Assembly (NCBI GenBank): GCA_039654915.1
Contig: CM077600.1
Coordinates: forward strand, 74,533,992-74,597,991
Direction of reading: 5' to 3'
From: Aquilaria yunnanensis
Lineage: Eukaryota > Streptophyta > Magnoliopsida > Malvales > Thymelaeaceae
DNA: 64,000 bases
The number at the start of each line of letters is the position of its first letter. Position 1 is the stretch's first letter. Shown here in pieces: positions 798 through 38,670 of this stretch. A program made the translations under genes and the position numbers. The notes beneath the pieces are model-generated. The model worked only from the letters and a program-made list of their open reading frames with translations. It was not told where the DNA came from and made no database searches.

Positions 798-811
798 CAT
801 GCCCCCCTCTG
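798..811 (-). other. polypurine tract of element A
   Basis: On the minus strand a purine run with six consecutive G residues, ending GCATG, lies directly before the LTR start TGATAGCC. The same layout occurs before the 3' LTRs of elements B and C. This is the expected plus-strand DNA priming site. Confidence 0.85.
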
Positions 812-3976: not shown

Positions 3977-4104
3977 TTTGCTTTAGGGCTCCTATTATTT
4001 TTCTCCTTTGTGCTCCTTCTTTGGGCACTTCTTTTGTAAGGCAGCGTTTGCTCTAAATGAACAATCTTTTGGCTAAGTCCTTTCTTGCAAGTTTCTTCGT
4101 TTCC

Positions 4105-4625
4105 ACTGTCCCGAACATGTTTGCTCGAGAGACTTTCAGAAAACCTGCAACCAAAGAAACTTTTTACCTTCCTTTGTCCCGAGTGTGCTCGCTCAAGAGA
4201 TTTTCTGGAAAGTTTGTAAAAATTTGGCTAAGTCTTTTGCAGGCTTTTTGTTTCCTTTTATCCCGAACATGTTCGCTCAAGGGACTTCGGAAAACCTTCA
4301 GCCAAATTTTTCTGTCTTCCTATTGTCCCGAGCATATTCGCTCAAGGGACTTAGGAAGATTTTCACGAGATTGCTCATTTCCCTTTTTCCCGAGCACGAT
4401 CGCTCAAGGGTGTTCGGAAATTACCTCTGCTTTTGGCGTGTACTTTTGCGAGATTCTTGCTTTCTTTTTTTCCCGAGCATGTTCGCTCAAGGGTGTTCGG
4501 AAAATTTTCTCTGCATTGATTATGCCGAGTGCCTTCGCAAGATTCTTGTTTCCCATTTTTCCCGAGCATAGTGGCTCAAGGGACTTCGGAAAATCGCATC
4601 TGCTTTTTTCGTGGCGAGCACCTTC
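4105..4625 (+). repeat. seven-copy degenerate tandem repeat between pol and aORF of element A
   Basis: A core of the form CCCGAGCATGTTCGCTCAAG followed by GGacTTCGGAAAA starts at 4110, 4178, 4262, 4327, 4389, 4472 and 4561. Spacings are 62-89 bp. The core contains GAGC...GCTC, able to form a small hairpin. It sits where the 3' ends of pol and the aORF converge. No equivalent is visible in elements B or C. The 294-aa open frame at 4057-4941 runs through the repeat and the antisense of pol and is judged spurious. Confidence 0.8.
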
Positions 4626-4741
4626 GCGGAATTTTGTCTTGGACAATTTGGTGTTCTTAAAAATTTTTCTTAAGACCATTCTTCTCCAGACCATTCTGTA
4701 CTTAGAATATTTCTTGTACAATATATCTCTTCCGCTCAACC

Positions 4742-8710: not shown

Positions 8711-8734
8711 CCGCAGGTATTTGCGAAGTTGGCC

Positions 8735-10240: not shown

Positions 10241-11077
10241 GAATGACTGTTGAGGAGACTTCTAGGAGGAAGAACGCCTGGAAGGTGGATCGCCCCAAGG
10301 AGAGTACCTGAAAAACTGGTAAACAAGGTTAGGAGGCCCCCGGAGTGTTTTTCCGGGGGGGGAGCCTCCGACGCCCAAGTCAGTGGTGGCCGGAAAAAGG
10401 AGAAAGTCACTAGCTCAAAGAGAAAGGCAGAAAAGTCTCGCCTGGTATTTTCTCAGAGTGTGGGAGCTGTATCTTCGGCCTACCAACCTCCTGTCAAGTA
10501 TTTATTTCCTGTATATATAGGAATACCTAGCCCGTTCAGATCATGACACGTGTGCGGTCGGATGCTCCTGAACTTCTGGGCGTAGGGGACAGATAGTTGG
10601 TAACCAGCTCGCCTCGAGCCTTGTGCTGAGACGGGCCATGATGTGATTCTGATGGCGTCTGCGCGTCAGGGCGGCTTTTTACGTCTGTGGTGGGACGTGT
10701 CAGAGGCTTCCTTAAATGCTTCCTTAAATGCTCCTGCCGTACTCCCGAGGTCCCTGGGCGAGGTCGTCCTCTAGTTCGGACAGAGCCTCTTCGGGAAGCA
10801 TACCCTCAGTTCGGGGGTTCCCAGTTCCAGGGAGTTCCGCCTTCGGGGATATCATGTTCGGGCAGCAATGTCTGGTGCCACTTTTCCGAAGGCGCGATGT
10901 TCACAACCTTGGGGGGCGAATAGAGTCCTCAAGTTTTACTGGCGTGCCGAGGCTCGGAGCTCTCCGGCTATCTCCCGAGGTGCATGATTCCACCTGTTCC
11001 CGGGAAGCGCCAGTTCTTCTGGCCATTTGTTGTGGCAGGGTGTTCGGCCAGGTTGAGGCGATAGCCTTTGGCTATCA
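10209..11077 (-). repeat. 5' LTR of element A (869 bp)
   Basis: Plus-strand ends are TGATGG and CTATCA, so on the minus strand it reads TGATAGCC ... GGCCATCA. On the minus strand a CACGTG box (10547-10552) precedes a TATATATA stretch (10511-10520), giving a plausible Pol II promoter. The first bases form a perfect hairpin, GATAGCC-AAA-GGCTATC. The gag ATG lies inside the 3' end of this LTR. Confidence 0.95.
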
Positions 11078-11150
11078 CCTAGCATCACATGTCAGTTTAC
11101 ACATAACTGTTGTTTGTTGTAATTTAATAAGTAAATGTTAAATTGTTTTT

Positions 11151-14874: not shown

Positions 14875-15779
14875 TGATAGCCGAAGAGCAATCGCCCCTG
14901 AAGGACCTCACGCGTGCACACCATCCTTGACCAACGCATCACCTCCGGTCGGAAAAAGCGACCAAACCTCAGCAAAGAGAGAAGCATCCTTGTACAAGAC
15001 GGATAGGCGTTACCTTCAGGGAACCCGTAGGACCAACTTCGGTCAAAAGGGGTCATCACCCCTCCCGAGCGTAACATCGCGCCGACCTCACGCGCCCAAG
15101 ACCACCTTCGAATACTCTTTGGGCCGCCTTCGGGACACGTTCACAAAGTACCATTCTCAGGAGCCCGAGCCTAACCTCAGGAGGGCCCAACCGAAGGTGT
15201 CTCATATAAAACAGGGGACCTCCCTCGGAAGAAGCTTACCTCCCCGGATAAGCTCTGTAGCCCGAGGGAGTTTGGTCACCCGAAAGGCCACGTGGGCGTA
15301 CGACCAAACAGCTAAGGAGTCTCTGACACACCGTACTCATACGGCCCCCGACACGCCGCCCCCAAACACGCTCTGACACGCCGCCCTCGTGCTGCTTAGG
15401 CTTTCGGCCGGGCGGCCTATGCTCGGCTAAGAAGCTCCCCCTCTCTGAAGGTACGGGTTATATCCGACCGAACACGTGTCATGATCTGGGCAGGCTGTGT
15501 CAAATGAACCTCACCTCCCTATAAATATTCGGGAAACCCCCTAGGTAAGCGGGTGGGACTCTCCAAGGAAAAACCTCTCCACTCCTTACTTATCTCTGGT
15601 ACTAACTTGGGCGTCGGAGGCTCCTTCCCCGGAAAAACACTCCGAGGACCTCCTGACTTATGTCTTCTTGAATCCTTACAGTCCCTCTGTGTCGAAGGTT
15701 CTCCATCCAAACGTTCTCCTATCGTGAATTCCTGCTCTAGGCTCACCATGTCACACAACGATGATGCCGAAGGTCATCA
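14875..15779 (+). repeat. 5' LTR of element B (905 bp)
   Basis: It begins TGATAGCCGAAGAGC and ends GGTCATCA. Its partner is 53501-54422. Promoter signals are CACGTG at 15473-15478 and CTATAAATA at 15519-15527. The gag ATG (15748-15750) lies 30 bp before the LTR end. Confidence 0.93.
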
Positions 15780-17151: not shown

Positions 17152-18165
17152 GGCCGAAAGCTAATGAGCTAGGGTTTGAGGTAATGCTTATGTTCCTTGA
17201 ATACATGGTATTTTCTTCCATGAACAAGGGATTAAAGTGCTAAATTAGTATTGGATTGGGTTAATTGAACAAGCTTGATGTCGGTTTAAGAAGTTGTTGT
17301 TGGCCGAATGTGTTGGAAGATTTATCTTGGAGTTCTTCTTGATTTCCATGGAAATTAATCCATGACTAAGTGTGTTGTTGCCTAATTATACTTGTGCTAG
17401 GCGAAACTTGAGCAAAGAACATCAAGTTGAACAAGTGGAAGTTTGGCCGAAAGCTACACTTTGAGGTAATGGTGTGTTCCTTGTTGAATTGCATGGTATT
17501 AGTGCCATGGACATTGATTAATAATGCTTTGATGATCATATGTTGGATTGAATGGATGAGGAACATTGTAATGTGAAGTTTAGCTTTTAGGCCGAGGGCT
17601 TGAAGTGGCATAGATTAGTGCCCTTTGCTTGAATACATGGTAATGGTGCCATGAAACAATAGTCATTGATGTTTGATGCATATGTGTGGAGTTAGAGTGA
17701 TGAAGGACATTAGTATGTATAGTTGGGCAATGTGGCCGAGAACATGGGTTAAGGTATTTATATGTGTTTTGCTTGGTTACATGGTATTTGTGCCATGAGT
17801 AAGCTTACTGGATGTTTAGTTGCTCATATGGTGAAATGGAATGTTGAGTAGTGCAACTATGTGGAATTGGGCACTTTGGCCGAAAGCTTGATTTAGAGTG
17901 AAATGGTGCATTTCACTTGGTTACTTGGCAATAATGCCATGGATGATGTTCATTGATGATTAGAATATCATGTGGTATGTTAGAATGATGGGCAGCACAT
18001 GTATGGATATATTGGGCCTTTTGGCCGAGAGCTTAAATGTGTGCAGTGTAGTGTCCTTCATAGAAATCATGGTAGTTGATCCATGGGTTTGTGTTGTTAA
18101 TGCCTATGTATTGTTATGGTAGGCATTGTGGTTGAAGGGCACTGGCACTTGACTTTGCTTGGTAA
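17152..18165. repeat. tandem array of ~144-bp degenerate repeats inside the solo LTR
   Basis: The motif GGCCGAA/GGCCGAG recurs at 17152, 17302, 17445, 17590, 17734, 17878 and 18023. A second motif of the form TACATGGTA...TGCCATG recurs near 17201, 17345, 17491, 17633, 17778, 17922 and 18066. Both keep a period of 142-150 bp. Units are well diverged from one another. Similar GGCCGAGAGC phrases at 18415 and 19312 suggest the array once extended further. Confidence 0.75.
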
Positions 18166-19366
18166 TGTACACCATGATTCAAGTGTCTAGAGTGGCTAAG
18201 TGATGGTTAAATGTGCCATATGACCTTAGTTGCTTGATGGGCTTAATGCTTATACTTGGATGTTTTGCTGATTAGCTAATTAACTATGGTAAATGTACTA
18301 GAAATGCAAGTAAATGTGGCCTATTTGCTTGGCATTTTGGGAGCTCTAAATGGAAATGGTGTATTGGTAAGTTTGTGTGCAAGAAATGCACATGGGTACA
18401 TGTATGGCTTATATGGCCGAGAGCAACATTGTGGAGTGTGTGTGTGTCCTTGTGTGCTTTGGTGTTTCCTTGTGCATGCTAACCCCACTTATGAAATATT
18501 TGACTTATTTATCTGTCTTGTATATGTATATGCCTGTTTTTCTTGTCTTGGTGTTTGTTTTGCAGGTTGAGCTAACTAATGGGAGGTTAAGCTTTGAGTG
18601 ATTACTCAGCTTAACTAAATAGACTCAATATGAGTTGTATATGTTTTAAGTGAATCCTACTGAGTTATATGCTTACTGCCCATCCTTTATTTTTCAGGCA
18701 AGGATATTCGGCCTGAGTAGTGCTAAGCTGCCTTATGTGTGTGCTTAGTGTTTATTTGCTTAGTTACCAAGGTATGTGCCAATGTGTGCTTGGCGTAGCA
18801 TTTTGGTTTCATTACAAGTCTTATTTACCTATGGTTGGCCGACACTTATGTTTTAAGTTTGCAGGCTGTAGAGTGGGAACTGTCTAGGAGAGCATGGATA
18901 CTTGGACTTTAGCTCTGATTGTGGTATTCACCTTTATGACCATGAATATGGCCATAGGTTTGGTGTTGCAGTGTGTACTTCTGTATGGGATTCTCAAGGT
19001 TTTGTTTGACCATTAGGAGTATGGTCTCGGGTTGTATGTAACTTGGCATGAACAACTTATGGATGCTTGGCATTTATAGCCATGGTAGATACTAGGTAGA
19101 CTACCATTTTGATTTGTACATATATGTAGTCTTGGATACCTAGTTTGTGGATGTTTTGTGGATTTCGGATGCCAAGTTATGTATGGACTTATGGATGGCA
19201 TTATGCTTGCCTATGTATGCTGGATATTATGGGCCAAAGTTGCCACTTTTATGTGAATGGTTATGGACCTAGTTATGTGGAACTGTGGTGCATAATGGCA
19301 TGTACATTAGTAGGCCGAGAGCATCATGCATTTTTACTTGTTGTTTTCAGAAATCTAAACCAACCT

Positions 19367-20410
19367 TGTAATAACCCTAGAAATTAAGTAAAATAAAATC
19401 ACCAAATTATCCTAATTAATTAAATAAATAAAATAATAATAATATTATTAATAATAAAATATAAAATTAAGAATCTTGAGTCTTAGATGATTCCTTTAGT
19501 GGTTATTAAGTCAAATTCCAAACCGGAAGCTCAAAGTCATTTTCTTTAGGCTAGGGGCATTTTTGTCATTTACAACCGAGCATCGGATGAAAAATCAGGG
19601 AGCACCATTGGATTCTTCTCGAAAAAAATGAGTCAATAGAAATTTACCTCACTTAATTCTGAATTCGTTTGCTTAGGTTTCCCAAAATTAACCAACGCGC
19701 GTGTGGGGTTTAAACCCGGTTCGTGCTATCGCTACATAGGATTATTATTATCAAATTTTCTTCCCATGGCTTAGGCGGCTGTTGATGGGGGAGAAGAAGT
19801 GCTGAAATATTGAAAAGGTCTGCTAGGAAAATTGAGCTTCACGCCAAAAAGAAACGTAGGGTAGAATAAGTTATAATATAATAATATGGCAATTAATTAG
19901 GATAACTAAATTGGCAAGTTTTTGTTTCTTTTTTGTTTTTTTGTCTAAAGTTTCGAAAAACCTGTAGTTGCTTTGCGGCTGGGGAGTTTTAGAAGTAAGA
20001 AATTAGGGTTAGGGAAGAAAATTTAATAATAATAATCCTATGTAGCGATAGCACGAACCGGGTTTAAACCCCACACGCGCGTTGGTTAATTTTGGGAAAC
20101 CTAAGCAAACGAATTCAGAATTAAGTGAGGTAAATTTCTATTGACTCATTTTTTTCGAGAAGAATCCAATGGTGCTCCCAGATTTTTCATCCGATGCTCG
20201 GTTGTAAATGACAAAAATGCCCCTAGCCTAAAGAAAATGACTTTGAGCTTCCGGTTTGGAATTTGACTTAATAACCACTAAAGGAATCATCTAAGACTCA
20301 AGATTCTTAATTTTATATTTTATTATTAATAATATTATTATTATTTTATTTATTTAATTAATTAGGATAATTTGGTGATTTTATTTTACTTAATTTCTAG
20401 GGTTATTACA
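19367..20410. repeat. inverted repeat of chromovirus LTR start (arms ~399 bp, loop ~247 bp)
   Basis: 19367-19764 is the reverse complement of 20012-20410, with about one mismatch noted by eye. Both arms begin at the LTR terminus TGTAATAACCC. The turn falls in AAATTTTCTTCCC (13 bp), which occurs both at the end of the arm and in the LTR sequence that follows. The loop sequence around 19748-19820 recurs at 23761-23832, showing where the same LTR was cut. AT-rich with TAA/TTA microrepeats (19405-19465). Confidence 0.88.
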
Positions 20411-20806
20411 GCATCCTCCCCTTAAAAGAAATTTGTCCCCAAATTTGAAAGAGGGTGTTGAGAAGTACCTTAAAGCTGTGGATACTTCTTTCGAAGCTCA
20501 TCCTCAACTTCCCAGGTTGCTTCTTGCTCTCCATGATTATTCCAAATGACCTTTACCAGTTGAATGACTTTGTTGCGCAGAACCTTTTCTCTACGATCCA
20601 CAATGGCCAAAGGCTCCTCGACGTAAGTCAAATCCTCGTGTAACTGCAAGGGCTCCCACGGAATAACATGTACTGGATCTGGTTGATACTTTCGAATATT
20701 ACTCACGTGGAACACGTTATGAATTCTAGCCAAGTTCGGTGGTAAAGCCACTCTATAAGCCACCTCTCCAACCCGTTCTAAAATTTCAAAAGGTCCAACA
20801 AAGCGC
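20411..20806 (-). pseudogene. 3' end of chromovirus pol: integrase C-terminus with chromodomain, plus polypurine tract
   Basis: 20763-20470 encodes the C-terminal integrase region and a chromodomain-like tail (VIWNNHGEQEATWEVEDELR), the mark of Tekay/Del chromoviruses. The stop is at 20470. After it a purine-rich tract (AAGGGGAGGATGC on the minus strand) abuts the LTR start at 20410. Upstream, the frame breaks at 20801-20805 (AAGCG), where it joins TRIM sequence. A closer-to-complete copy lies at 30442-31070. Confidence 0.85.
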
Positions 20807-21091
20807 TAGGTGCTTATGTTCTGGAATTGGAGCCTATATATCTACATAAGGCTTCCCACAATTCAACCATGTGGGACATGGGGTGTTACAAACTCCCCCC
20901 CTTATGTACCCAACGTCCCCGTTGGGGTCAATCGGATTACTTGGTTTCCCGGACCAAGTAACCTCTCTAATCAGACTACTTAGCCCCTGGCCAAGTAGCC
21001 TCTCGAATCCAGGATCAGTCCCGGTAGACGATGCATGTGCATACCCACTATGTCACACCATCATGGTCCCGGGTCGGCTCTGATACCAAAC
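20801..21091 (-). mobile_element. TRIM segment (truncated LTR, polypurine tract, interior, primer site)
   Basis: On the minus strand, starting at 21091, the TRIM primer site GGTATCAGAGCC and interior are followed by a C-rich/G-rich polypurine tract (20891-20906) and a TRIM LTR start (TGTAACACC at 20890). That LTR is cut at 20801 after about 90 bp. Its upstream neighbour is not a TRIM LTR but the 3' end of the chromovirus LTR (from 21092), joined exactly at the shared primer-binding site. No target duplication flanks this segment. Confidence 0.85.
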
Positions 21092-23832
21092 TGTAACGCC
21101 CTCAATTTTATAAACCTTAATTTTAAAAGATATCTTAAACTCCCAGAATAATAAAGCATTTAATTAAAATAATTTAAGAAATGTGAGGTAAAACATTTTA
21201 TTTTAAATTATTTTCCAAACAATAAGAGTATTAAACGAAATCAGAGTAGTTAAGTGACAATCCCAGGAAAACTAATATGCGGATAAGCTGCCAATTTAAA
21301 CAAACCATATGTTTCTTTAGAAATCAAATAACACAAAGTTAAAACTCAGTCCCAGCCAGTTCTACTTTCGAGGGGCTACAGCGTACTCTCACTCAGTCTG
21401 CTCCACATCTTGAACCTCGTTATATGGTTCAGTGTACTCTGTCTCCTCATAGTACTCACCTAGAAAAACATGTTAAGAGGAGGGATGAGCACAACTTGCT
21501 CAGTAAGAGGGAAGTATCAGGCCCATCACGTGGGTCCTAATATTCCCGTAACAAACAACAACGAATAATAAACTTTAAGCTGTAGCAATTTACTTAAAGA
21601 ACAATTCCATACAACATCATAACAACAAAATCAAAATCCTACTAGCATGCTTGAACTACCATGCATATGCATAATTCTTTTTACCGATTAAATAATATGT
21701 TCTTGATCGATCACTTAATCCAATACTTAATTGCCGTCGGACGAACCTAGGGTGGTGAGTGTGTACATCACCCACTCTCGGGATAACTCTTAGGCAGTGC
21801 CACTAGGGATGCCACCAAGCCAGAGCCTCTCGGGATACCTACGCCGAGGTAGAGCCTCTCGTGATAACAGCCATAAGCATGGTCCCTCGCCAGCTATGGT
21901 CTGACAGCGCACAAATCATATCTCCATACTCCATGTCAATATCGGGTCATGACTAGGGACGGTCCGCCGCCACCCTAACATGCCTCTCGGGTTCAAATCG
22001 TCCGTTCCGAACCTCTCGTCTAAATTTACGGCTTGTTAAGTTATGTAGATATGGTTTGTCACCAACCTTGCATGCCTCGTATTTTATCTTACTCTTCAAA
22101 TCTTTTACTTAATGCAATATTGTGTATGACAAACATCAATCATATGCAACAACCAATTGATGCATAAACGTAGCTCATTTTATTTTAGCTCTTTTTAGTA
22201 GAATGCCATGATTCTAGTGCATCCTATTTCTTTTATCATGTTATCTTAGTTTAGTGTTACATGATGTCATGACAATCAATGATATCTTTTAAGTGTATTT
22301 GTGATAAATGTTCATCTCATTTCTCATGAATTCTTTCTAAATTGGTCATTTAGTATTTACGCTCCTAATCCTTTATCTATCGGCTTATAATAATTTATTA
22401 CGGCCCTAACATGCCACTAACGGTTCCTTCCAATCTCATCATGTTGCTAATGAGCTTGTCGGCCCTAAACATGGTACTAGCGGTGTTTGTCTCGCCGGCC
22501 CTAAACATGCTACTAGGGGTGTTTATTTAGGCGGTCCTAACATATTTCTAATTTAATTCTTGTTATAAGCGGTCCTAATATGATACTAGCGTCAAACATA
22601 CATCATACATCACATCATTACAACCATACAACCAACCAACCAAAATTACATCTCAAAGGAAGAGAACTAAAATAAAATATAATATAATAAAATAAAACTC
22701 TAGAAAAACTAATTAATTACCCTACCCATGTTGCCCACGCGTTTAAAGATTTTGTTTAGCCCAATTGTTTACTTAAAATTTATTATTCGGGTTGATGCTT
22801 ATTTTGGGCCTAAGAGGGCCCACGAGAACTAACCCGCTCTTCCCCCTTACCTAGTTCGGAATAATATGACGAAAGTGGGCGATTTTCCTAGGACGGTCCT
22901 ACAAAATGTTAGTAAGGTAGAAAATTAGAAAAATATGCTAAAATTTAGAAATTTTCCTAAAGGGTACTTGGAAAGTTCATGTTCTTAACAACTAGGCCGA
23001 AATTTTACCTAGTGGGCAAAAATGGGCTCGGGGCGTCTTCGGTGGCCTCGTGCCTATTCGGGATTGTGCCGGAAGCCTTCTTGATATTGATCCTAAAAAT
23101 TACAGCGGTTATACACTAACTTATAAGCTTATTTAATGGCTGTAAAAACGGATCTTGGAAGGAAAAAAATTTTATTTCAGTTACCGATGTGTTTTCGGGA
23201 TCTCTGACGCTCCGGGAGTCCAAAGAAACACCAAACCTTCAAGTAAGGATTTTCTAACCCTTTGTAACAACATGGACAGCAAGGAAAAAAGAATTATTAG
23301 GGCTGTAATATTCGAAATTGGCAGCCAAGATAATTTTTAAAAGAGGCTACGATGGCTTACCGGGCTTAGAACCAAGTATGGACAAGATTGCACCGGAAAC
23401 GAGTGGAAAAACCCAAAACTTGGATTAATGATAATCTACCAAATATTTACAGCAAAATATAAGGCCTTTAGCTGCTGGAAAAAAAAAATTAAAAGAGTAA
23501 TACCGAAGAACTTTGGCTCACACGAAGCAATTCGGGATCGTCGGTACTCGTAGGATTGGCTTTGGTGTCCGGATGGGGTTTCCCTTCAACTTAAAGAATC
23601 TAGGCAAAAATACAGAATTAAATTAATATTCTAATACTTTGGAAGAGCCAAGAATCAAAGTATGGATGGCTGAACTTACACAGTTTGCTGAAGCACTAAG
23701 TGGAGGCAAACAACCGGCATAGAAGGATGAAAGAATGGTGGACGATCTTCTTGCAGAAAAAATCAAATTTTCTTCCCATGGCTTAGGCGGCTGTTGATGG
23801 GGGAGAAGAAGTGCTGAAATATTGAAAAGGTC
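21092..23832 (-). repeat. 3' part of a chromovirus LTR
   Basis: It is a diverged copy of 27046-29700 in the same orientation, starting TGTAACGCCC (the minus-strand LTR end GGGCGTTACA). The rest of this LTR lies displaced at 19748-20410. Short repeated phrases of the type 'CGGCCCTAAACATG..ACTAG' occur at 22400-22590. Open frames such as 23155-23340 recur in the other LTR copy and are not genes. Confidence 0.88.
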
Positions 23833-24112
23833 CAGCACCCCCATATCCCACATGGGTGAATTGTGGGAAGCCTTATGTGGATATATAGGCTCCAATTCTA
23901 GAACACAAGCACCTAGCGCTTATCCTTTTCTAAAGGATAGCCCATGTGGTGTGGGCAGGTGTTCCGTTGACCGGTTCTGGACTTGGGTCATTACAGATGG
24001 TATCAGAGCCGACCCGGGACCACGATGGTGTGACATAGTGGGTATGCACATGCATCGTCTACCAGGACTGATCCTGGATTCGAGAGGCTACTTGGCCAGG
24101 GCCTAAGTAGTC
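23833..24112 (+). mobile_element. TRIM segment (LTR, primer site, part of interior)
   Basis: TRIM LTR from about its fifth base to 23995 (ends GTCATTACA), then GATGGTATCAGAGCC and interior up to AAGTAGTC, where minus-strand pol sequence starts. The matching complete TRIM is 31590-32119. It lacks its second LTR and has no target duplication. Confidence 0.85.
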
Positions 24113-24650
24113 TTCATGCCACTCCACCAAAAGCTTTTCTTCAAATCATGGTACATCTTGGTACCCCCCGGGTGGATGGTCAACCGAGATGCATGTGCCG
24201 CCGATAAAACATCATACTTTACCTCACTACCTTGGGGAACAACAATTCTATTTTGAAATTTTAGGGTACCATCCACATCCACACTGAATCCCTTTTGCCC
24301 TAGAACTGACCATTCTCGGCATTGTGGATCCTCCTTTTGCGCCTCCTTGACCCTTGCCACAAATGTAGGCTCCATATGCAAACTGGCCATGAGAACCTGG
24401 GGTCCCTTCACTTGAACTCCTAAGCTCATATGACTAAACTCCTCTAGTAGTTTCCACTCAGAAACCACCATAGCATTCAGTTTGGCACCCATTTTTCTAC
24501 TCAAAGCATCAGCCACTAGGTTGGCTTTACCTGGGTGATACTGAATAGTGCAATTATAATCGGAGAGATATTCAACCCAACGACGCTGTCGATTATTGAG
24601 TTCCCTCTGTGACAATAGATACTGTAGGCTTTTGTGATCAGTGAAGACCT
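24107..24650 (-). pseudogene. chromovirus pol fragment: RNase H end and integrase zinc region
   Basis: Minus-strand coding from [15 protein letters not shown] (RNase H) through [15 protein letters not shown] to the integrase zinc region ([18 protein letters not shown]). It is cut at both ends: at about 24650 it meets plus-strand gag and at about 24107 plus-strand TRIM. The first ~100 residues of RNase H and the integrase core are missing from this piece. Confidence 0.87.
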
Positions 24651-25778
24651 TGAGAATTCCAGAAGAGGACAAGGTGGACTTAGCTACCTTTAGCTTGGTT
24701 GAGGAGGCCCAGACATGGTGGGAGGCCACTCGACCAGGGGTTCCGAGAACTGAGGGTGGATATATCACTTGGGAGACATTCGTGCATACTTTTTATGGTC
24801 GATACTTCTCTGAGGCCATGAGGGACAGAAAAGAGCAGGAGTTTCTTGCACTGGTACAGGGGAGCATGACAGTAGATCAGTACACAGCCAGATTTAATGC
24901 CTTGGCCCGCTATGCTGAGCACATTGTGGCACATGAACCAAGGAAAATCAAGAGGTATGTTAATGGTTTGCGTGACGAGCTGGCAGATAGGCTGATTATG
25001 CAAGAGATTGATACCTTTGAGAAGGCAGTATCCTTAGCTCAACGGGGTGAGGCAAGGATGCGAGATAAGCAACTATCTAGACCGCTTGACACGAGTCGGA
25101 GTCGTATGCCATCACGACCTACACATGCAGGCAATTTCCGTCCTATACCACGACCGATGCCTGCCCAAGGGCGAGGACATTTTGGCAGAGGTCAGCCAAT
25201 CGATAGCAGAGCTACCCGACTACAGCTTAATGAGACAGGAGGGTCTACAGTGCGACCAGTTTTTCAGGGCCAGGAAGGGCCTAGATGTCAGACTTGTCAT
25301 TTCTTTCACCCGATTGGAGGGCGGTGTGTGACCTGTTTCTATTGCCAGGAGATAGGGCATCTATCCAGGCAATGTCCTAAGAGGGATGCTCCACTAACAG
25401 CACACGTTCCACCAGCAGCACTGGCAGAACCACCAACAAAGAAACCTCGTGTGGCAGGACGTGTTTACGCAGTGACAGCCGAGGAGGCAGAGGATGCTCC
25501 AGGTGTGGTGCAAGGTACGCTGTTTTTTTTTATAGTTTTTAATTATAGCCTTCAATTTCAAGTTCATGGTAGTGGCATGCTTAGGTTAGTGATTGTTTAA
25601 ATTGATCGTAGGTACTCTTTCTATTTTTGGGTTCCCTGCTAGAGTTCTTATAGACTCGGGGTCCACACATTCTTTCATATCTCCTAGACTAGCAAATCAG
25701 TTAGGCATGCCTGCTAAAGAGCTTCCTTTCATACTAGTGGTTTCTACACCATCAGACACTAGTATGAGTTCTACCGCT
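24641..25778 (+). pseudogene. gag: chromovirus gag and start of protease, with a candidate intron
   Basis: Gag domain ([41 protein letters not shown]), then a zinc knuckle CFYCQEIGHLSRQC (CX2CX4HX4C, about residue 230), then the retropepsin start with RVLIDSGSTHSFIS. Gag and protease open frames are separated by 25515-25611, a 97-base stretch starting GT, T-rich inside and ending CGTAG. Its removal would keep frame across the family's normal gag-protease link. It is truncated at both ends and inverted relative to the neighbouring pol pieces. Confidence 0.8.
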
Positions 25779-27039
25779 TCTTTAACTCATGAAAATTATT
25801 TTCGCATCGCTCGATCCACTGGAATGGTTGATCCTTATTAGTCAATTGGGTCAAAGGGCGTGCCAACTTTGAATAACCTTCCACTCTATAATACCCAGCC
25901 AAGCCCAAGAAACTCCGAATCTCTGACACGGTCTTCGGCTGTTGCCAATTCACCACAGCTTCAACCTTACTAGGATCCACTGAAATTCCTTCCTTAGTTA
26001 CCACATGGCCTAAAAAGGTGACACTGTCCAACCAAAACTCGCACTTGCTCAGCTTTGCATACAGCTTATGCTTCTTCAACGTCTGAAGTGCAATCCTCAA
26101 ATGTTCTCTATGGCTTTCAGCATCTGGTGAGTAAATCAGAATATCATCTATGAAAACAATGACAAACTGATCTAGGTATGGTTGGAACACCCTATTCATT
26201 AGGCCCATGAAAGCTGCGGGTGCATTTGTTAACCCGAAGGGCATCACTAAAAACTCATAATGCCCATAACGAGTCCTGAATGCTGTCTTTGACACATCTC
26301 CCTATTTGATTTTCAGTTGATAGTACCCAGACCTCAAATCGATCTTGGAGAACACTGATGACCCCCTTAGCTGATCAAACAGGTCATCAATCCGAGGTAA
26401 AGGGTACCTATTCTTTATCGTCACCAAATTCAGCTGTCGATAATCGATGCACATCCTCAAGCTACCATCCTTCTTCTTCACGAATAAAACAGGAGCACCC
26501 CAAGGTGAGGTACTTGGACGTATGAACCCCTTTTCAAGAAGCTCCTGTAATTGACTTTTTAGTTCCGCCATTTCTGAGGGAGCCATTCGATAAGGTGCTT
26601 GAGAGATAGGAGCCGTTCCTGGCAATAAATCAATGGTGAAGTCAACATCCCGGTTAGGTGGCATTCCAGGTAACTCCTCTGGAAACACTTCTGGAAATTC
26701 TTCCACAATGGGAATACCAGCTACTGATTCAGGCTTCTCTGACTCTGTCTGCACATAAGCCAAATAGCCAACACCACCTTGACGGAGATATCTATTAGCT
26801 TGCAAGCTAGAAATTATGATTGGAGTGAAGCTCTTTTTATCCCCAACAAATTGCACTTCTGACCCATCCGGTAAGGAGAAGGTAACTAGCTTCTGATAGC
26901 AATCCACTTTAGCATGGTGGCGATGTAGCCAATCCATGCCCAAAATACAATCAAATTCAGATATCCCAAGCACAAAGAGGTCAGAGTCTAAAGGTAGCCA
27001 AGGCATTAAATCTGGCTGTGTACTGATCTACTTCTGATA
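25771..27039 (-). pseudogene. chromovirus protease end and reverse transcriptase, with a gag sliver at its 5' end
   Basis: On the minus strand from 27006: protease C-terminus ([18 protein letters not shown]), then RT with [20 protein letters not shown], the Ty3-type catalytic FIDDILIYS, and [17 protein letters not shown]. One in-frame TAG (about 26302-26304) replaces a Glu codon typical of the family. 27000-27033 is a 34-bp gag sliver that duplicates part of 24871-24906 in the opposite orientation. It is joined to the primer-binding site on one side and to protease on the other. The RT piece ends near 25778. Confidence 0.87.
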
Positions 27040-27045
27040 CCAAAC
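27030..27045 (-). other. primer-binding site of the chromovirus (tRNA-Met type)
   Basis: Minus-strand TTTGGTATCAGA directly after the LTR end GCGTTACA. TGGTATCAGAGC is the classic complement of initiator tRNA-Met in plant LTR elements. The element's own downstream leader is missing; gag sequence follows at once. Confidence 0.8.
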
Positions 27046-30000
27046 TGTAACGCCCCTAATTTTATAAACCTTAATTTTAAAAGATAACTTAAATTCCCAG
27101 AATTATAAAGCATTTAATTAAAATAATTTAAGAAATGTGAGGTAAAACATTTTATTTTAAATTATTTTCCAAACAATAAGAGTATTAAACAAAATCAGAG
27201 TAGTTAAGTGACAATCCCAGGAAAACTAATATGCGGATAAGGTGCCAATTTAAACAAACCATATGTTTATTTAGAAATCAAATAACACAAAGTTAAAACT
27301 CAGTCCCAGCCAGTTCTACTTTCGAGGGGCTACAGCGTACTCTCACTCAGTCTGCTCCACATCTTGAACCTCGTTATATGGTTCAGTGTACTCTGTCTCC
27401 TCATAGTACTCACCTAGAAAAACATGTTAAGAGGAGGGATGAGCACAACTTGCTCAGTAAGAGGGAAGTATCAGGCCCATCACGTGGGTCCTAATATTCC
27501 CGTAACAAACAACAACGAATAATAAACTTTAAGCTGTAGCAAATTTACTTAAAGAACAATGCCATACAACATCATAACAACAAAATCAAAATCCTACTAG
27601 CATGCTTGAACTACCATGCATATGCATAATTCTTTTTACCGATTAAATAATATCTTCTTGATCGATCACTTAATCCAATACTTAATTGCCGTCGGAAGAA
27701 CCTAGGGTGGTGAGTGTGTACATCACCCACTCTCGGGATAACTCTTAGGCAGTGCCACTAGGGATGCCACCAAGCCAGAGCCTCTCGGGATACCTACGCC
27801 GAGGTAGAGCCTCTCGTGATAACAGCCATAAGCATGGTCCCTCGCCAGCTATGGTCTGACAGCGCACAAATCATATCTCCATACTCCGTGTCAATATCGG
27901 GTCATGACTAGGGACGGTCTGCCGCCACCCTAACATGCCTCTCGGGTTCGAATCGTCCGTTCCGAACCTCTCGTATAAATTTACGGCTTATTAGGTCATG
28001 TAGATATGGTTCATCACCAACCTTGCATGCCTCGTATTTTATCTTACTCTTCAAATCTTTTACTTAATGCAATCTTGTATATGAAAAACATCAATCATAT
28101 GCAACAACCAATTGATGCATGACCATAGCTCATTTTACTTTAGCTCTTTTTAGTATAATGCCATGATTCTAGTGCATCCTATTTCTTTTATCATGTTATC
28201 TTAGTTTAGTGTTACATGATGTCATGACAATCAGTGATATCTTTTAAGTGTATTTGTGATAAATGTTCATCTCATTTCTCATGAATTCTTTCTAAATTGG
28301 TCATTTAGTATTTACGCTCCTAATCCTTTATCTATCGGCTTATAATAATTTATTACGGCCCTAACATGCCACTAACGGTTCCTTCCAATCTTATCATGTT
28401 GCTAATGAGCTTGTCGGCCCTAAACATGGTACTAGCGGTGTTTGTCTCGCCGGCCCTAAACATGCTACTAGGGGTGTTTATTTAGGCGGTCCTAACATAT
28501 TTCTAATTTAATTCTTATTATAAGCGGTCCTAATATGATACTAGCGCCAAACATACATCATACATCAAATCATTACAACCATACAACCAACCAACCAAAA
28601 TTACATCTCAAAGGAAGAGAAATAAAATAAAATAAAATAAAATTCTAGAAAACTAATTAATTACCCTACCCATGTTGCCCACGCATTTAAAGATTTTATT
28701 TAGCCCAATTGTTTACTTAAAATTTATTATTCGGGTTGATGCTTATTTTGGGCCTAAGAGGGCCCACGAGAACTAACCCGCTCTTCCCCCTTACCTAGTT
28801 CGGAATAATACGGCGAAAGGGGCGGCTTCCTAGGACGGTCCTACAAAATGTTAGTAAGGTAGAAAATTAGAAAATGTGCTAAAATTTAGAAATTTTCCTA
28901 AATGGTACTTGGAAGGTTCATGTTCTTAACAACTAGGCCGAAATTTTACCTAGTGGCCAAAAAGGGTCTCGGGGTGCCTTCGGTGGCCTTGTGCCTATTC
29001 GGGATCGTGCCGGGAGCCTTCTTGATATCGATCCTAAAAATTACAGCAGCCATACACTAACTTATAAGCTTATTTAATGGCTGTAAAAAAAACGGATCTT
29101 GGAAGGAAAAAATTTTGTTTCAGTTACCGATGTGTTTTCGGGATCTCTGACGCTCCGGGAGTCCAAAGAAACACCAAACCTTCAAGTAAGGATTTTCTAA
29201 CCCTTTGTAACAACATGGACAGCAAGGAAAAGAGAATTATTAGGGCTGTAATATTCGAAATTGGCAGCCAAGATAATTTTTAAAAGAGGCTACGGTGGCT
29301 TACCGGGCTTAGAACCAAGTATGGACAAGATTGCACCGGAAACGAGTGGAAAAACCCAAACCTTGGATTAATGGTAATCTACCAAGAATTTACAGAAAAA
29401 ATATAAGGCCTTTAGGTGCTGGAAAAAAAAAATTAAAAGAGTGATATAGAAGGATTTGGGCTCACACAAATGAATCTGGGATCGTTGGTACGCGCAGGGT
29501 CGATTTTACTGTCCGGATGAGATTTCTCTTCAACCTAATGAACCTAGGTAAGATTAGGCAAAATTATTGTTCTAATAATCCAGAATAAAATTTAATCGTA
29601 GCATAAAGGGCTGTACTTACACTGTTTTGATGGAGGAATAAACGAGACAATAACCGGCGTGAAGAGGACCAAAGGATGCTGGGCTGCCTTTTTCCCAAAA
29701 TCTGATTTTTTTTTTTTTTTTCTTATGGTGGTGTGCTGTTGAAGGAGGAGAGAATAATAAGCGGCAGCTGTTTGTGAGAGGAAAAAAAATAGGTTTAATT
29801 TCTAACCCACTTCAGATGCTTGATCGCATAGAAACAAGGAATAAAAAAAAATGAAAGGAAAAACGTATTAGTGTGCGTGTTTAATTAAGGAAAAATGGAG
29901 ATAAGGAAATAATTAGTTTTTTTTTTTTTTTTAACTCCAGGGGGTGTTGCGGCTGGATAGTTTTAGAAGAGAGAAATTAGGGTTTGGGGAAAATAAATAA

Positions 30001-30382
30001 ATAATAATCCTATGTAGCAGTAGCACGAACCCGATTTAAACCCTACACACGCGTAGGCTAAATTTTTGGAAATCTAAGCAAACGGATTCAGAATTAAGTG
30101 AGGTAAATTTCTCTTGACTCATTTTTTTTAGAAGAATCCAATGGTGATCCCAGATTTTTCATCCGATGCTCGGTTGTAAATGACAAAAATGCCCCTAGCC
30201 TAAAGAAAATGACTTTGAGCTTCCGGTTTGGAATTTGACTTAATAACCACCAAAGGAATCATCTAAGACTCAAGATTCTTAATTTTATATTTTATTATTA
30301 ATAAAATTATTATTATTTTATTTATTTAATTAATTAGGATAATTTGGTGATTTTATTTTACTTAATTTCTAGGGTTATTACA
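27046..30382 (-). repeat. full chromovirus LTR (3337 bp)
   Basis: Minus-strand start TGTAATAACCC at 30382 and end GGGGCGTTACA at 27046. It is bordered by a polypurine tract and pol end on its 5' side (30383 onward) and by a primer-binding site on its 3' side, so it lies between two internal regions rather than at an element end. The length fits Tekay/Del-type LTRs. Poly-T runs occur near 29707 and 29920. Confidence 0.9.
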
Positions 30383-31070
30383 GCATCCTCCCCTTAAAAG
30401 AAATTTGTCCCCAAATTTGAAAGAGGGTGTTGAGAAGTACCTTAAAGCTGTGGATACTTCTTTCGAAGCTCATCCTCAACTTCCCAGGTTGCTTCTTGCA
30501 CTCCATGATTATTCCAAATGACCTTTACCAGTTGAATGACTTTGTTGCGCAGAACCTTTTCTTTACGATCCACAATGGCCAAAGGCTCCTCGACGTAAGT
30601 CAAATCCTCGTGTAACTGCAAGGGCTCCCACGGAATAACATGTACTGGATCTGGTTGATACTTTCGAATATTACTCACGTGGAACACGTTATGAATTCTA
30701 GCCAAGTTCGGTGGTAAAGCCACTCTATAAGCCACCTCTCCAACCCGTTCTAAAATTTCAAAAGGTCCAACAAAGCGTGGGGCTAACTTTCCTCTCACTC
30801 CAAAACGTTGAACTCCCTTGGTCGGTGACACCTTTAGGAACACATGATCACCAACAGAAAACTCCAAAGGACGACGTCTCTGGTTTGCATAACTTCGCTG
30901 CCTATCTTGAGCCGCTACCAATCGTTGTTTGATTATTTTGACCTTATCTGAAGTTTGTTGTACCAAATCTGGTCCTAATAAAGGCCTGTCGCCTACTTCT
31001 TCCCAACACACCGGAGTACGACAACTACGTCCATACAAAGCCTCATATGGGGCCATCTGAATGCTGGAGT
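30383..31070 (-). pseudogene. chromovirus integrase C-terminal region with chromodomain, and polypurine tract
   Basis: Minus-strand coding from 31070 to 30442: integrase core end ([18 protein letters not shown]), [20 protein letters not shown], then the FVGPFEILERVGEVAYR region and the chromodomain tail ending KKYPQL. The stop is followed by the polypurine tract and the LTR start at 30382. It turns at 31070 into an inverted copy of itself on the plus strand. Confidence 0.88.
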
Positions 31071-31590
31071 TAGCTACCTTTTCTGATAGGGATCCACGAT
31101 TCACATCACAGTTTTGGCAGGCTTTACAAGAACAATTGGGCACTGTGACATTAATGAGCACCGCTTATCATCCACAGACAGATGGGCAGTCGGAGAGGAC
31201 TATACAAACTATTGAGGATATGCTTAGAGCTTGTGCACTGGATTACAAGAACTCCTGGGATAATGACCTGCCACTAGTGGAGTTTGCTTATAATAATAGC
31301 TATCACTCCAGCATTCAGATGGCCCCATATGAGGCTTTGTATGGACGTAGTTGTCGTACTCCGGTGTGTTGGGAAGAAGTAGGCGACAGGCCTTTATTAG
31401 GACCAGATTTGGTACAACAAACTTCAGATAAGGTCAAAATAATCAAACAACGATTGGTAGCGGCTCAAGATAGGCAGCGAAGTTATTCAAACCAGAGACG
31501 TCGTCCTTTGGAGTTTTCTGTTGGTGATCATGTGTTCCTAAAGGTGTCACCGACCAAGGGAGTTCAACGTTTTGGAGTGAGAGGAAAGTT
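30785..31590. repeat. palindrome of integrase sequence (286-bp arms, 234-bp spacer)
   Basis: 30785-31070 and 31305-31590 are inverted copies of equal length, with one mismatch noted by eye. The spacer is the integrase sequence that normally lies upstream of the arm, so the plus strand reads on continuously from spacer to right arm. This is what a strand switch that copies back along the same template leaves behind. Confidence 0.9.
31071..31589 (+). pseudogene. chromovirus integrase core fragment, inverted
   Basis: Plus-strand coding with [36 protein letters not shown] and the core end up to GVRGK. It is cut at 31589 by the TRIM LTR start. The N-terminal integrase half is absent. Confidence 0.87.
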
Positions 31591-32119
31591 GTAACACCCC
31601 CATGTCCCACATGGGTGAATTGTGGGAAACCTTATGTGGATATATAGGCTCCAGCTCTAGAACATAAGCACCTAGCGCTTATCCTTTTCTAAAGGTTAGC
31701 CCATGTGGTGTGGGCAGGTGTTCCGTTGACCGGTTCTGGACTTGGGTCGCCACAGATGGTATCAGAGCTGACCCGGGACCACGATGGTGTGGCATAGTGG
31801 GTATGCACATGCATTGTCTACCGGGGCTGATCCTGGATTCGAGGGGCTACTTGGCCAGGGGCTAAGTAGTCCGATTAGAGAGGTTACTTGGTCCGGGGAA
31901 CCAAGTAATCCGATTGACCCCAACGGGGACGTTGGGTACATAAGGGGGGGAGTTTGTAACACCCCCATGTCCCACATGGGTGAATTGTGGGAAACCTTAT
32001 GTGGATATATAGGCTCCAGCTCTAGAACATAAGCACCTAGCGCTTATCCTTTTCTAAAGGTTAGCCCATGTGGTGTGGGCAGGTGTTCCGTTGACCGGTT
32101 CTGGACTTGGGTCGCCACA
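31590..32119 (+). mobile_element. complete TRIM (terminal-repeat retrotransposon in miniature), 530 bp
   Basis: Two identical 165-bp LTRs (31590-31754, 31955-32119; TGTAACACCCC ... GTCGCCACA) flank a 200-bp interior. The interior starts with the tRNA-Met-type primer site GATGGTATCAGAGC (31755-31768) and ends in a polypurine tract with seven or more Gs (about 31940-31954). The LTR has a TATA-like GGATATATAGG and a palindrome CCATGTCCCACATGG. There is no coding capacity. The bases on its two sides (AAAGT and AACCT) do not match, so it has no duplication of its own; its right end is the right end of the whole chimera. It carries no 5S rRNA sequence, so it is not Cassandra. Confidence 0.92.
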
Positions 32120-32463
32120 AACCTTGTGGGCTTCTTGGTTGCCATATAGTTAGTACACTTGATGCACACCATGTATGCACTTAAATTGCATTTAAGTGTT
32201 GCCTTGCTTGTTATGCAAGTTATTAATTGAAACCTTGCTTGTTGTGCAAGTTAGGGGTTTTGGGCCTTGCCCTTGCTGCAAGTTGTTAATGGGTCTTGTT
32301 AAAGCCACCTGGGCCACCTCCCAGGCCTCTTAACTTAAGAAAATAAGACTTAAAAGTTGCCATTACTTGCTTGGCCGAACCAAACACTTTGAGATTAAAT
32401 ATTGGGTTTGGGAGTTAAAGTAGTAAATGATAGGCCAGGGCCTGAGTGAGGTGTGACAGGATC

Positions 32464-33412: not shown

Positions 33413-36400
33413 GATGCCTTCTCCGAAAGGAAGAGAAGAAGAACAAAGAAAGGGGGACAAAGAGGACTATGATTCTGACAGGCGTCGAGACCAAAGTCCT
33501 CGAAAGAATCTGCCACCATCGACAGGGGTCATCCAGACCATCACCACAGGGATACCCTCGGCTAAAAGGAAATGGAAGATAAGAGAAATATCCATGATGG
33601 AGTACGGCAACTCGCCGAAAAGGCTCGTGCGGAAAGAATGGTGTACGGTAAAGTTCCCCCATGATGACCCACTCCTGGTCACGGCAAGGATAGGGAGTTA
33701 AGACGTCAAAAGAGTACTCCTGGACGACGGCTCCAACACTGACGTCATCTTCTCGCACCTACTGCCTAAATTAGGCATCTCAAAAGGCGACCTCAACACA
33801 GTCAATTCCCCCACCTTCGGGGTTGGGCCATCCGAACTCCCAGTTCTTGGGTGCATCGATCTACCCCTAATGTTGAAGGGGACCTCGCCTCAGAATCAGG
33901 AAGAACTATTTGCCTTCATCATGACGAGGTTCATCGTCATTGATGTTCCCTCATCATACAACGCCATCCTCGGGAGGCAAACTCAAGGCAATCTCCACGT
34001 TCTCGCGGATGTAAAGTACTTAACGGTCACCTTCGTAACCAAAGAAGGAGATGCGGAGATCTTTATTGACCAAGCCGAAGTCAGGAAGGTCTTCACCAGG
34101 GCTAGACAAAGCCCGGCCAAGCTCCAAGTACAGACTTCGGCTACGGAAAAAGTAGTCATAACAGGCGAAACAACCACAAAGGAGGAAACAGGAAAGTTGG
34201 AGAAAGTAGAAACAGAAGATGTAGAGCTGTTCCCCGGCCGAAACACTCGAGTAGGGAAAAAGTTGGCCAAAGGTGACAAAGACAGGCTTGTGTCTTTCTT
34301 GTTAATAAACAAAGATCTATTCACCTACTCTCCGAAAGACATGCCTAGGGTCGACCCCAACATAATCCACCATAGTCTCAAAGTTCGCCCGAACCCTAGG
34401 CCGGTTCGGCAGAAAAAATGGAACCTATCGTCTCATAAGAATTCCTTCATTAAAGCTGAGGTTAGGAGCCTGATTGAGGCAGGGGTAATAAGAGAGGTTA
34501 AATACCCTGAATGGCTTAGCAATGTGGTTATCGCCACAAAGGAAGGGAGTGAAAAGCTCCGAATGTGCATCGATTTTCAGAATCTGAATGATGCCTGTCC
34601 AAAGGACTCCTAACCTTTGCCAGCCATAGACCAATTGGTGGATTCAACGGCCGAGTACGGTCTTCTCAGTTTCCTCGACGCCTTTAGCGGGTATCATCAA
34701 ATTCGGATGAACCCCGAAGATGAAGAAAAAACCGCCTTCATCACCGAGGTTGGTACCTACTATTACGTCAGAATGCCCTTCGGGCTTAAAAACGCAGGGG
34801 CTACCTATCAGAGGTTGATGAATAAGGTATTCAACTCCCAGATTAGGAGGAATATGGAAGTGTATATCGATGATATGATAGTTAAGAGCAAAATGCCTAG
34901 TAATCATATCTTGGACTTGGATGAAACCTTCCAACGATTTCGGGAGTTCAGAATTCACCTCAACCCCGAAAAGTGCATCTTCGGAGTGGGCACAGGTAAG
35001 TTCCTCAGGTTCATGGTGTTAGAAAGGGGAATAGACGCCAACCCCAAAAAGGTCGAAGCCTTGCTAGGGGTCCGAATACCTACAACCATTAAAGATATAC
35101 AAAGTCTTACCGGAAGAATCACTTCACTTAATAGATTTATTTCCAGGTACGATGACTGATGTCAACCATTCTTCAAAGTGCTCATCAAAGCAGCCAAGAG
35201 CGAGGGCAGTTCTGGAACAGAGGAGCACCCTTGGAACCTGAAATGTCAGAGAGCTTGGGATGAGCTTAAAAGTTACCTAACCCGCCTGCCAACACTTCGA
35301 CAACCGCGGGAAGGGGAACCTCTCATCCTTTACCTCGCCGTCACTAAAAAAGCCATGAGCTCAGTCCTAGTGAAAAAAGAGGGTGGGAGCCAGTGGCCAG
35401 TATATTATGTAAACAAGTCTCTACATGGCGCCGAGGTCAGATACCCATTGCTCCAAAAGGCTATCTATGCCTTAATATTCTCGGGCAGGAGATTACGACC
35501 CTACTTTCAAGGGCACGCTATCATTTTCCGAAGCAACCTGCTTCTACGCGATATAATGAAAAAAGTAAAGCATTCAGGAAGGCTATCAAAATGGTGTATC
35601 GAGCTCGGGGAGTATGACATCACTTATGAGCCAGTAAAAAAGAGGGTCGGAGCCAGTGGCCAGTATATTATGTAAGCAAGTCTCTACATGGCGCCGAGGT
35701 CAAATACCCATTGCTCCAAAAGGCTATCTATGCCTTAATACTCGCGGGCAGGAGATTACGACCCTACTTTCAAGGACACGTTATCATTGTCCGAAGCAAC
35801 CTGCCTCTACGCGATATAATGAAAAAAGTAGAGCATTTGGGAAGGTTGTCAAAATGGTGTATCGGGCTCGGGGAGTATGACATCACTTATGAGCCAAGAA
35901 GGGCAATAAAAGCTCAAGCATTGGCAGACTTCATCGTCAAAATTCCAGAAATCGAGAATGCTGAAGCTACCTCGGAAGACTTAACAAAGGTTGAGCCAGA
36001 GTGGAAGCTCTTCGTCGATAAAGCCTCAGGGGCCGAGCATCAAGGCGCCGGGATAGTTCTTCAAGGACCCGAAGGCATAGAAGCCACCAAAGCCATCAAA
36101 TTCGGTTTTGATGTTACCAATAACATCACCGAATACGAAGCCCTCATAGCATGACTAAAACTAGCCAGAAAAGTTGGTGTAAAAAACCTTATGGCCCACA
36201 GTGACTCACAATTAGTAGTCCGGTAGACGAAAGGAGATTACGCTACAAAGGATCCAACCTTGGCGAAGTATCATGACCTTGTCAAAAAACTCATTGAAGA
36301 GTTTGACTCGGTACGGATAGAAAACATGCCCCGAAAAGATAATACTCAAGCTGATACCTTAGCCAAATCCAAGGAACCCACCAAGGTACTAAGGCAACCT

Positions 36401-37788: not shown

Positions 37789-38670
37789 TGATAGCCGAAG
37801 GACTGTCGCCCTTGTAGCCCGCGAACTGAGGTCAAGTACCGCATTCGGTAAATCAAGTGTCACCCACAAGGAGTACTTGTGCAGACCTTGGAAAGGACGA
37901 AGTCGGGCGCCTCGAGCATACTACTTCGGTGGCCAGTCAGCACCCCTGAGGATGGTAGCTACGACCTCGGAAAGATAGCGCGTCGCCCCCTTTGGAAGGG
38001 TGGCTTAATCACCTTTGGGGAGAAGGACCAGCCACCATTGGCAGGAGAAAATCCCCCGAACAAGGAGCCTCAGTGCTAGGGAATCTCCCGAACTACTAGC
38101 ACGACTCTGGAAGAAGGGTCCTTGTTCCGAGGGACGACCTCGAGTAAAGAGACCTCGATGGTACGGTGAAAACATTTAAGGAGCCTCTGACATGTCGCCC
38201 GCACACACTACACGCCGCCCTCATATGCGCTCTGACACGCCGGGACTGTCCACATCCTATCATGTAGGACTATGCCTACCCTAGCCCATGGCCCGAGGAG
38301 CCTACAAACGGCTGAAGGCCCTCATGCCCAGAAGGTACAAATTACATTTGACCGAACACGTGTCGCGATCTGAGCGGGCCACATCCTCCTATATATATAC
38401 TCAAAAAATGGCCTCATGGGAAAAAACTCCCACAAAAAGGGGATAACAGGCAAGAATCTTTGGCACTTGGGACTTCCCCTCCACCTCCAAAAAACTAACT
38501 TGGGCGTCGGAGGCTTCTCCCCGGAAAAAGACTCCGGGGACCTCCTAACCCCTGTTTTCTGAGTGTTTCAGGCAGGTCCTCCTGGGAAACATACACTTTA
38601 GGTGTTCTCCTTCACTGGAAGTCCCTCCCAGTCTCTCTATCTCACACAACGAAGATGCTGCAGGGCATCA
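37789..38670 (+). repeat. 5' LTR of element C (882 bp)
   Basis: Starts TGATAGCCGAAGGACTGTCG and ends CAGGGCATCA. CACGTG at 38357-38362 and TATATATATA at about 38390-38399 form the shared promoter layout. The ATG seen in the 3' LTR (50068-50070) is changed here (CTATCTCAC in place of CCATGTCAC), so this copy lost the gag start. The primer site TATGGCGCCGTCTGTGGG follows at 38671. Confidence 0.93.

Follow-up and report, generated by a model that had tools for sequence, protein, structure and literature searches.

The stretch of DNA analysed here, called the window below, covers 64,000 nucleotides (nt) of contig CM077600.1 from Aquilaria yunnanensis (assembly GCA_039654915.1, positions 74,533,992 to 74,597,991) and contains a composite retroelement block of 12,753 bp at positions 19367-32119. 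The block is made of pieces of two retrotransposon families, a Ty3/gypsy chromovirus and a terminal-repeat retrotransposon in miniature (TRIM), and we resolved it into 16 segments in both orientations. All of its bases could be assigned to one of the two families except for a few at the joints, and no surrounding host DNA was found inside it. The pentanucleotide AACCT stands directly outside the block on the left (19362-19366) and on the right (32120-32124) as a target-site duplication (TSD), as a preliminary description of this DNA had claimed. The left terminus, 19367, is the first base of a chromovirus long terminal repeat (LTR) in sense orientation, and all 20 nt compared agree with those of the two minus-strand LTR starts, 30382 and 20410. 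The right terminus, 32119, closes a TRIM LTR and is the 3′ end of a complete TRIM of 530 bp. The outer ends, assigned to two families in the same description, are exact on both sides. By chance, a 5-mer would match at two fixed ends with a probability of 0.00115 as judged from local composition and of 0.00144 as judged from random pairs in the surrounding element. A comparison of the joined flanks with the window revealed no empty site: they match only their own two places and a stretch of 76% identity at 62080-62244, which begins some 336 bp to the right of the joint, and the left flank additionally matches its own tandem repeats.

Two variants of the chromovirus LTR, A and B, are present in the block. 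Variant A is complete and lies on the minus strand with 3,339 bp (27044-30382, TGTAATAACC...GGCGTTACA), its middle at 29683-29946 being assigned by position inside the LTR. On the same strand follows the chromovirus primer-binding site (PBS; TGGTATCAGA) at 27033-27043, which is broken off. Variant B is distributed over three segments: its first 383 nt (U3) form the outer left terminus in sense orientation (19367-19749), positions 1-661 lie on the minus strand at 19750-20410 with the TG start at 20410, and the part from position 591 to the LTR end, also on the minus strand, occupies 21089-23832. This last segment breaks off at the PBS as well, and both variants end in TGGTATCAGA. In the replication of LTR elements, the PBS is the place where plus-strand strong-stop DNA ends. 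The leader past the PBS and the N-terminal part of gag gave no assignable stretch in the block.

The U3 segment at the left terminus is an inverted arm of 20410-20012 (382/383 identical), and a strand-switch joint lies near 19750 beside a shared AAATTTTCTTCCC. Taken at their full length, the arms 19367-19765 and 20012-20410 show 2 mismatches in 399, one of which (19752) falls at the joint. Read from 23832 to 19750, the unit of LTR B starts at LTR position 591, extends to position 661 of the next LTR copy, and carries a terminal redundancy of 71 nt, 23762-23832 being an exact repeat of 19750-19820. Position 591 lies about 50 nt past a TATA-like stretch, and from its sequence the unit looks like an RNA with a terminal repeat and a putative transcript start at position 591. 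Of the 151 R-U5 mismatches between the two variants, 91 fall in the first 400 alignment columns. The chromodomain copies together with roughly the first 250 nt of U3 differ between A and B at 5 positions in about 650 nt, and then the divergence climbs sharply; this boundary may be a further template switch or an older boundary between LTR subtypes. Around the presumed promoter, LTR A (about 30130-29280) is strongly different from LTR B (about 20158-19750 and 23832-23340), with close agreement at both LTR ends, as if a promoter-region module had been exchanged.

Three diverged TRIM segments are found within the window. The complete copy (31590-32119, plus strand) has all parts expected of a TRIM: a length of 530 bp, a pair of 165-bp LTRs (31590-31754 and 31955-32119), a PBS at 31757, and a G-rich polypurine tract (PPT) before 31955. 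Its LTRs are identical over 165/165 positions, in line with the preliminary description, and it has no TSD of its own, with AAAGT on the left and AACCT on the right. The second segment, T2 (23833-24112, plus strand), contains the 5′ LTR from about position 3-5, the first 3 nt being uncertain, followed by the PBS and part of the internal region. The third, T3 (20801-21088, minus strand), comprises the PBS, the internal region, the PPT, and the first part of the 3′ LTR, and is joined to a chromodomain piece at a shared CGCTT. T2 and T3 differ at 3 of 115 sites, so that at least two TRIM templates, and probably three, are represented.

We compared the two families by the signs of a partner pair taken from PMC11302176, as far as this source was drawn on, namely an identical PBS, identical LTR termini, and a conserved second LTR half. 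The PBS TGGTATCAGA is common to TRIM and chromovirus, and the chromovirus copies do not preserve bases beyond it. Both families share the LTR start TGTAA; the chromovirus LTR end TTACA recurs in T2, whereas the complete TRIM has CCACA. Between the chromovirus LTR and the TRIM LTR no match was obtained at E 1e-8, and the second half of the LTR is thus not conserved. An Rfam search over 19300-32200 at E 1 returned no match, so no 5S-like promoter of the Cassandra type was seen in the TRIM, and a tRNA scan of the window returned none.

The coding pieces of the chromovirus were identified by Pfam hits taken at E 0.01 and by alignment to homologues; the segment ends of the internal pieces are approximate. 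The Pfam hits comprise gag with a CCHC knuckle, protease as two pieces on opposite strands, reverse transcriptase (RT) in two open reading frames (ORFs), RNase H with the integrase zinc domain, and the integrase C-terminus. Gag, the CCHC knuckle, and the first half of protease lie on the plus strand (24651-25775); the second half of protease, RT, and the start of RNase H lie on the minus strand (25776-26998), where a stop codon (26302-26304) interrupts RT. RNase H from profile position 61 up to position 41 of the integrase zinc domain is found at 24107-24655 (minus strand). The integrase core from about SDRDPRF onward runs in sense at 31082-31589 on the plus strand, and its part 31305-31590 is an inverted arm of 31070-30785. 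Pfam detected nothing at E 0.01 in the integrase ORF of the plus strand (31061-31594), yet this ORF aligns to integrase homologues. The integrase C-terminus, the chromodomain, the 3′ untranslated region (UTR), and the polypurine tract occur twice on the minus strand, at 30383-31069 and at 20411-20805, the latter being identical to 30777-30383 at 393 of 395 positions. The chromodomain matches (E 0.0006 and 0.0076) are under Pfam's cut-off, and the piece is 58% identical to P0017, a protein with a chromodomain listed in Pfam. A possible foreign filler at 25770-25842 was rejected, as on the minus strand this stretch corresponds to the link between RT and RNase H. The chromovirus domain order is unreadable from the scrambled copy.

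Judged by Pfam and homologue positions, the gag-protease, protease-RT, RNase H-integrase, and integrase pieces tile without overlap, and the probability that four random pieces in an assumed length of 4,500 nt avoid overlap is 0.009. Integrase reaches a best identity of 72% among the best 120 of at least 7,997 database hits, and protease-RT one of 77% among the best 120 of at least 7,999; named hits are mostly from plants. The gag piece (24641-25600) had a sole database hit, one of 1,326 candidates, in P0121 on a contig of 1,899 nt, with 98% identity over 76%. The gag of this chromovirus is unusual or poorly annotated. Searching viral contigs with the gag protein gave 38 stretches that matched the pattern, none of which was confirmed, and searching them with a 19-nt TRIM pattern gave none.

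Followed from right to left along the minus strand, the block begins with the complete TRIM in antisense, followed by integrase (antisense) and a strand switch with a 12-nt scrap of gag. Next come integrase-chromodomain-polypurine tract, the complete LTR A, the broken PBS, a 36-nt scrap of gag, and protease-RT. A strand switch leads into protease-gag (antisense), and another one into RNase H-integrase zinc domain, which is followed by TRIM T2 (antisense). The order then continues with LTR B from position 591 to its end, the PBS, TRIM T3 (sense), and chromodomain-polypurine tract, and closes with LTR B positions 1-661, a strand switch, and the U3 of LTR B (antisense) up to the left end. The scrambling of the chromovirus pieces, noticed earlier, is borne out by Pfam; the three TRIM segments had been noticed earlier as well. 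The 36-nt gag scrap (26997-27032, minus strand) is a second copy of 24871-24906, and the 12-nt scrap at the integrase strand-switch joint (31070-31081, plus strand; TTAGCTACCTTT) is also found at 24680. Both scraps lie at joints and, being extra copies, point to copying rather than to cut and paste.

The repeats within the block separate into two classes by their identity. Duplicates that the event itself would have made differ at only 4 of 1,297 pooled sites (TRIM LTRs 0/165, U3 arms 1/383, integrase arms 1/283, chromodomain-3′ UTR 2/395, and the 71-nt redundancy 0/71). A recount of the integrase arms 30785-31070 and 31305-31590 gave 1 mismatch in 286, which, next to the 2/399 of the U3 arms with one at the joint, bears out the former statement of about one mismatch per pair. 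LTR A and LTR B, compared on the U5 side past the first 400 alignment columns, show 60 differences in about 2,233 (Fisher p 2e-8 against the event-made class). The complete TRIM differs from T2 and T3 at 32 of 568 sites, a few of them at joint edges (Fisher p 2.5e-13 against the same class). The event-made copies are thus about nine-fold closer than the U5 pieces and about eighteen-fold closer than the TRIM pieces, and the sequences separate what appear to be copies made in the event from copies of different templates, diverged by about 3-6%. The single recent event proposed before agrees with the near-identical duplicates; the templates themselves had diverged by about 3-6%.

Seven joints are readable against parents in the window; those at 24107, 24651, 25776, 26998, and 31082 were not counted, one parent being absent there. 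Strictly shared sequence amounts to 10 nt at 21079 (in the PBS), 5 nt at 20801, 2 nt at 19750, 1-2 nt at 31590, 1 nt at 31070, and 0 nt at 27033, the last figure resting on what we take to be the usual primer-site base after TCAGA. At joint 23833, 0 nt are shared and up to 3 bases are unassigned. The joint at 19750 shares 16 nt if one mismatch is allowed. Against a null of random pairs of places in the same sequences, the probabilities are 0.006 for at least 5 nt, 5.5e-5 for at least 10 nt, and 2.3e-5 for at least 16 nt with one mismatch, and two of seven joints at 5 nt or more have a probability of about 7e-4. Three of the seven exceed chance sharing, and four do not. This mixture fits an RT that jumps at shared sequence and at template ends.

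We consider it probable that the block arose as one aberrant chimeric complementary DNA (cDNA), produced by repeated template and strand switching and integrated once. The preliminary description had proposed such an origin, and the breaks at the PBS, three of the seven joints, the identity classes, and the lack of host DNA inside the block support it. The RT would have switched template and strand between two or three TRIM templates and chromovirus templates that carried either of the two LTR variants. The LTR-PBS ends would correspond to plus-strand strong-stop DNA. At one of the two LTR-PBS breaks, the PBS of LTR B is followed by the PBS and interior of TRIM itself, as would result from a second strand transfer onto the minus-strand DNA of TRIM; the joint 21079-21088 would then mark its landing on the TRIM's PBS. 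The two inverted arms may represent strand-switch fold-backs, the left outer end may stem from a polypurine-primed plus strand, and the right-hand TRIM may have been added end to end or by one-ended integration, after which LTR integrase would have inserted the finished cDNA in one step. The outer ends, an exact TG from one family and an exact CA from the other, share one 5-bp duplication and support a single integration. One RNA that was degraded during copying would give the observed tiling without overlap. More tentatively, and with some doubt, we propose that a single particle held chromovirus RNAs of both LTR variants together with TRIM RNAs, two or three in number, that the PBS of TRIM served as a strand-transfer target, and that the integrase took ends of both families.

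Several observations weigh against this origin. The non-overlapping tiling equally suits breakage and rejoining of one DNA copy, the differences between LTR A and LTR B fall mostly in one stretch and may reflect plain LTR subtypes, and the unit of LTR B, TRIM, and chromodomain could be an older element. Moreover, four of the seven readable joints share just 0-2 nt, as from end joining, and the joint at 19750 comes down to 2 nt when no mismatch is allowed; the mixture of joints is the best argument for some end joining.

An unlikely alternative is a concatemer of several linear cDNAs and fragments of cDNA, assembled through end joining or through one-ended integration of one molecule into another, that was integrated afterwards. 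The joints at 23833, 27033, 31070, and 31590 with their 0-2 shared nt would suit it, as would the tiling of the internal coding pieces and the TRIM at 31590, whose exact TG end abuts the integrase piece. However, the 10-nt and 5-nt joints, the 16-nt joint with one mismatch, the fold-backs of about 290 and 390 nt, and the 36- and 12-nt gag scraps indicate copying. We regard an assembly artefact that joined repeats of several loci into one as improbable: the locus is repetitive throughout, but a mis-join is not expected to yield exact LTR ends, a matching TSD, and breaks at the PBS. Least probable, in our judgement, are nested insertions of chromovirus and TRIM followed by chromosomal inversions, deletions, or microhomology-mediated replication. 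A pair of nested inversions that lost a little sequence would produce the succession of PBS, protease-RT, inverted gag-protease, and RNase H, yet this route is at odds with the lack of host DNA within the block, with one common TSD around outer ends of different families, with the missing TSD of the complete TRIM, and with the duplicated gag scraps. Helitron capture and break repair with cDNA filler were set aside by reasoning, given the exact LTR ends and the TSD.

An origin as one switched cDNA places the block beside known composites. Sabot and Schulman 2007 (PMC1950507) described complex LTR elements of Triticeae, rice, and maize with one TSD and put them down to template switching. Like these, the Aquilaria block has one 5-bp TSD around the composite, consistent with abnormal switching between co-packaged RNAs and a single integration. 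Their elements join two members of the same family head to tail, with a common third LTR and near-identical outer LTRs, whereas the block combines two families in both orientations and has outer ends from different families. Measured by the features given there, the block has the single outer TSD; its outer LTRs are chromovirus on the left and TRIM on the right rather than highly similar, and its internal LTR A stands among fragmentary and scrambled cores rather than between complete ones. Template switching between co-packaged RNAs of plant LTR retrotransposons has been reported for ONSEN (PMC5668417) and mini-Tnt1 (PMC2923131); in the parts of these papers considered here the switches stay within one family, and the main text of neither mentions inversion. 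In the open-access literature searched, we found no two-family, inverted complex with one TSD, although subscription or other papers may hold one. Template-switching composites are already known, and the block departs from those above in its two families, its mixed orientation, and its outer ends of two families.

On this reading, the block also links a TRIM and a Ty3/gypsy chromovirus through the same round of reverse transcription. Most TRIMs have no known helper element. The sections of Gao et al. 2016 (PMC4717578) used here report 278 of 289 TRIM subfamilies without a longer coding relative, and candidate helpers that share LTR sequence with their TRIM (79-98% identity), those of flowering plants all being Ty1-copia. 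The Aquilaria TRIM resembles these elements in being a small LTR element with 5-bp TSDs and in needing a helper, and differs from them in that its associated element is a Ty3/gypsy chromovirus sharing only the PBS and terminal bases with it. In the part of PMC11302176 cited above that concerns RLG_Cereba and RLG_Quinta, a non-autonomous element is considered to rely on enzymes supplied by a centromeric Ty3/gypsy element. There, as in the block, both partners have the same PBS; Quinta shares LTR sequence with its partner, whereas the TRIM of the block does not. If the tentative single-particle proposal is true, the locus would be physical evidence of a Ty3/gypsy chromovirus packaging and mobilising a TRIM with unrelated LTRs. 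Chimeric cDNAs of this kind would allow helpers to be found independently of shared LTR sequence. The block would further show how far reverse transcription can err and still give an integrable molecule, with intermediates such as LTR-PBS ends and strand-switch fold-backs seemingly preserved in one readable record.

The surroundings of the block in the window are themselves rich in repeats. The block is enclosed by two LTR-like repeats, 14875-15779 and 53501-54422 (91.9% identical), which from their sequence resemble LTRs that belong to an older host element. To the right of the block, this presumed older element also encloses another element with LTR-like repeats at 37789-38670 and 49221-50099 (92.7%). 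A young-looking LTR element occupies 1-11078 on the minus strand, with repeats at 1-798 and 10282-11078 that are 99.5% identical and a pol ORF of 1,322 amino acids (4742-8710) containing two RNase H-like regions (RT_RNaseH_2 and RVT_3). Finally, diverged tandem repeats of about 66% identity and a spacing of about 145 nt lie left of the block at 17442-18085, and a 261-bp tandem duplication (94%) lies right of it at 35373-35896.

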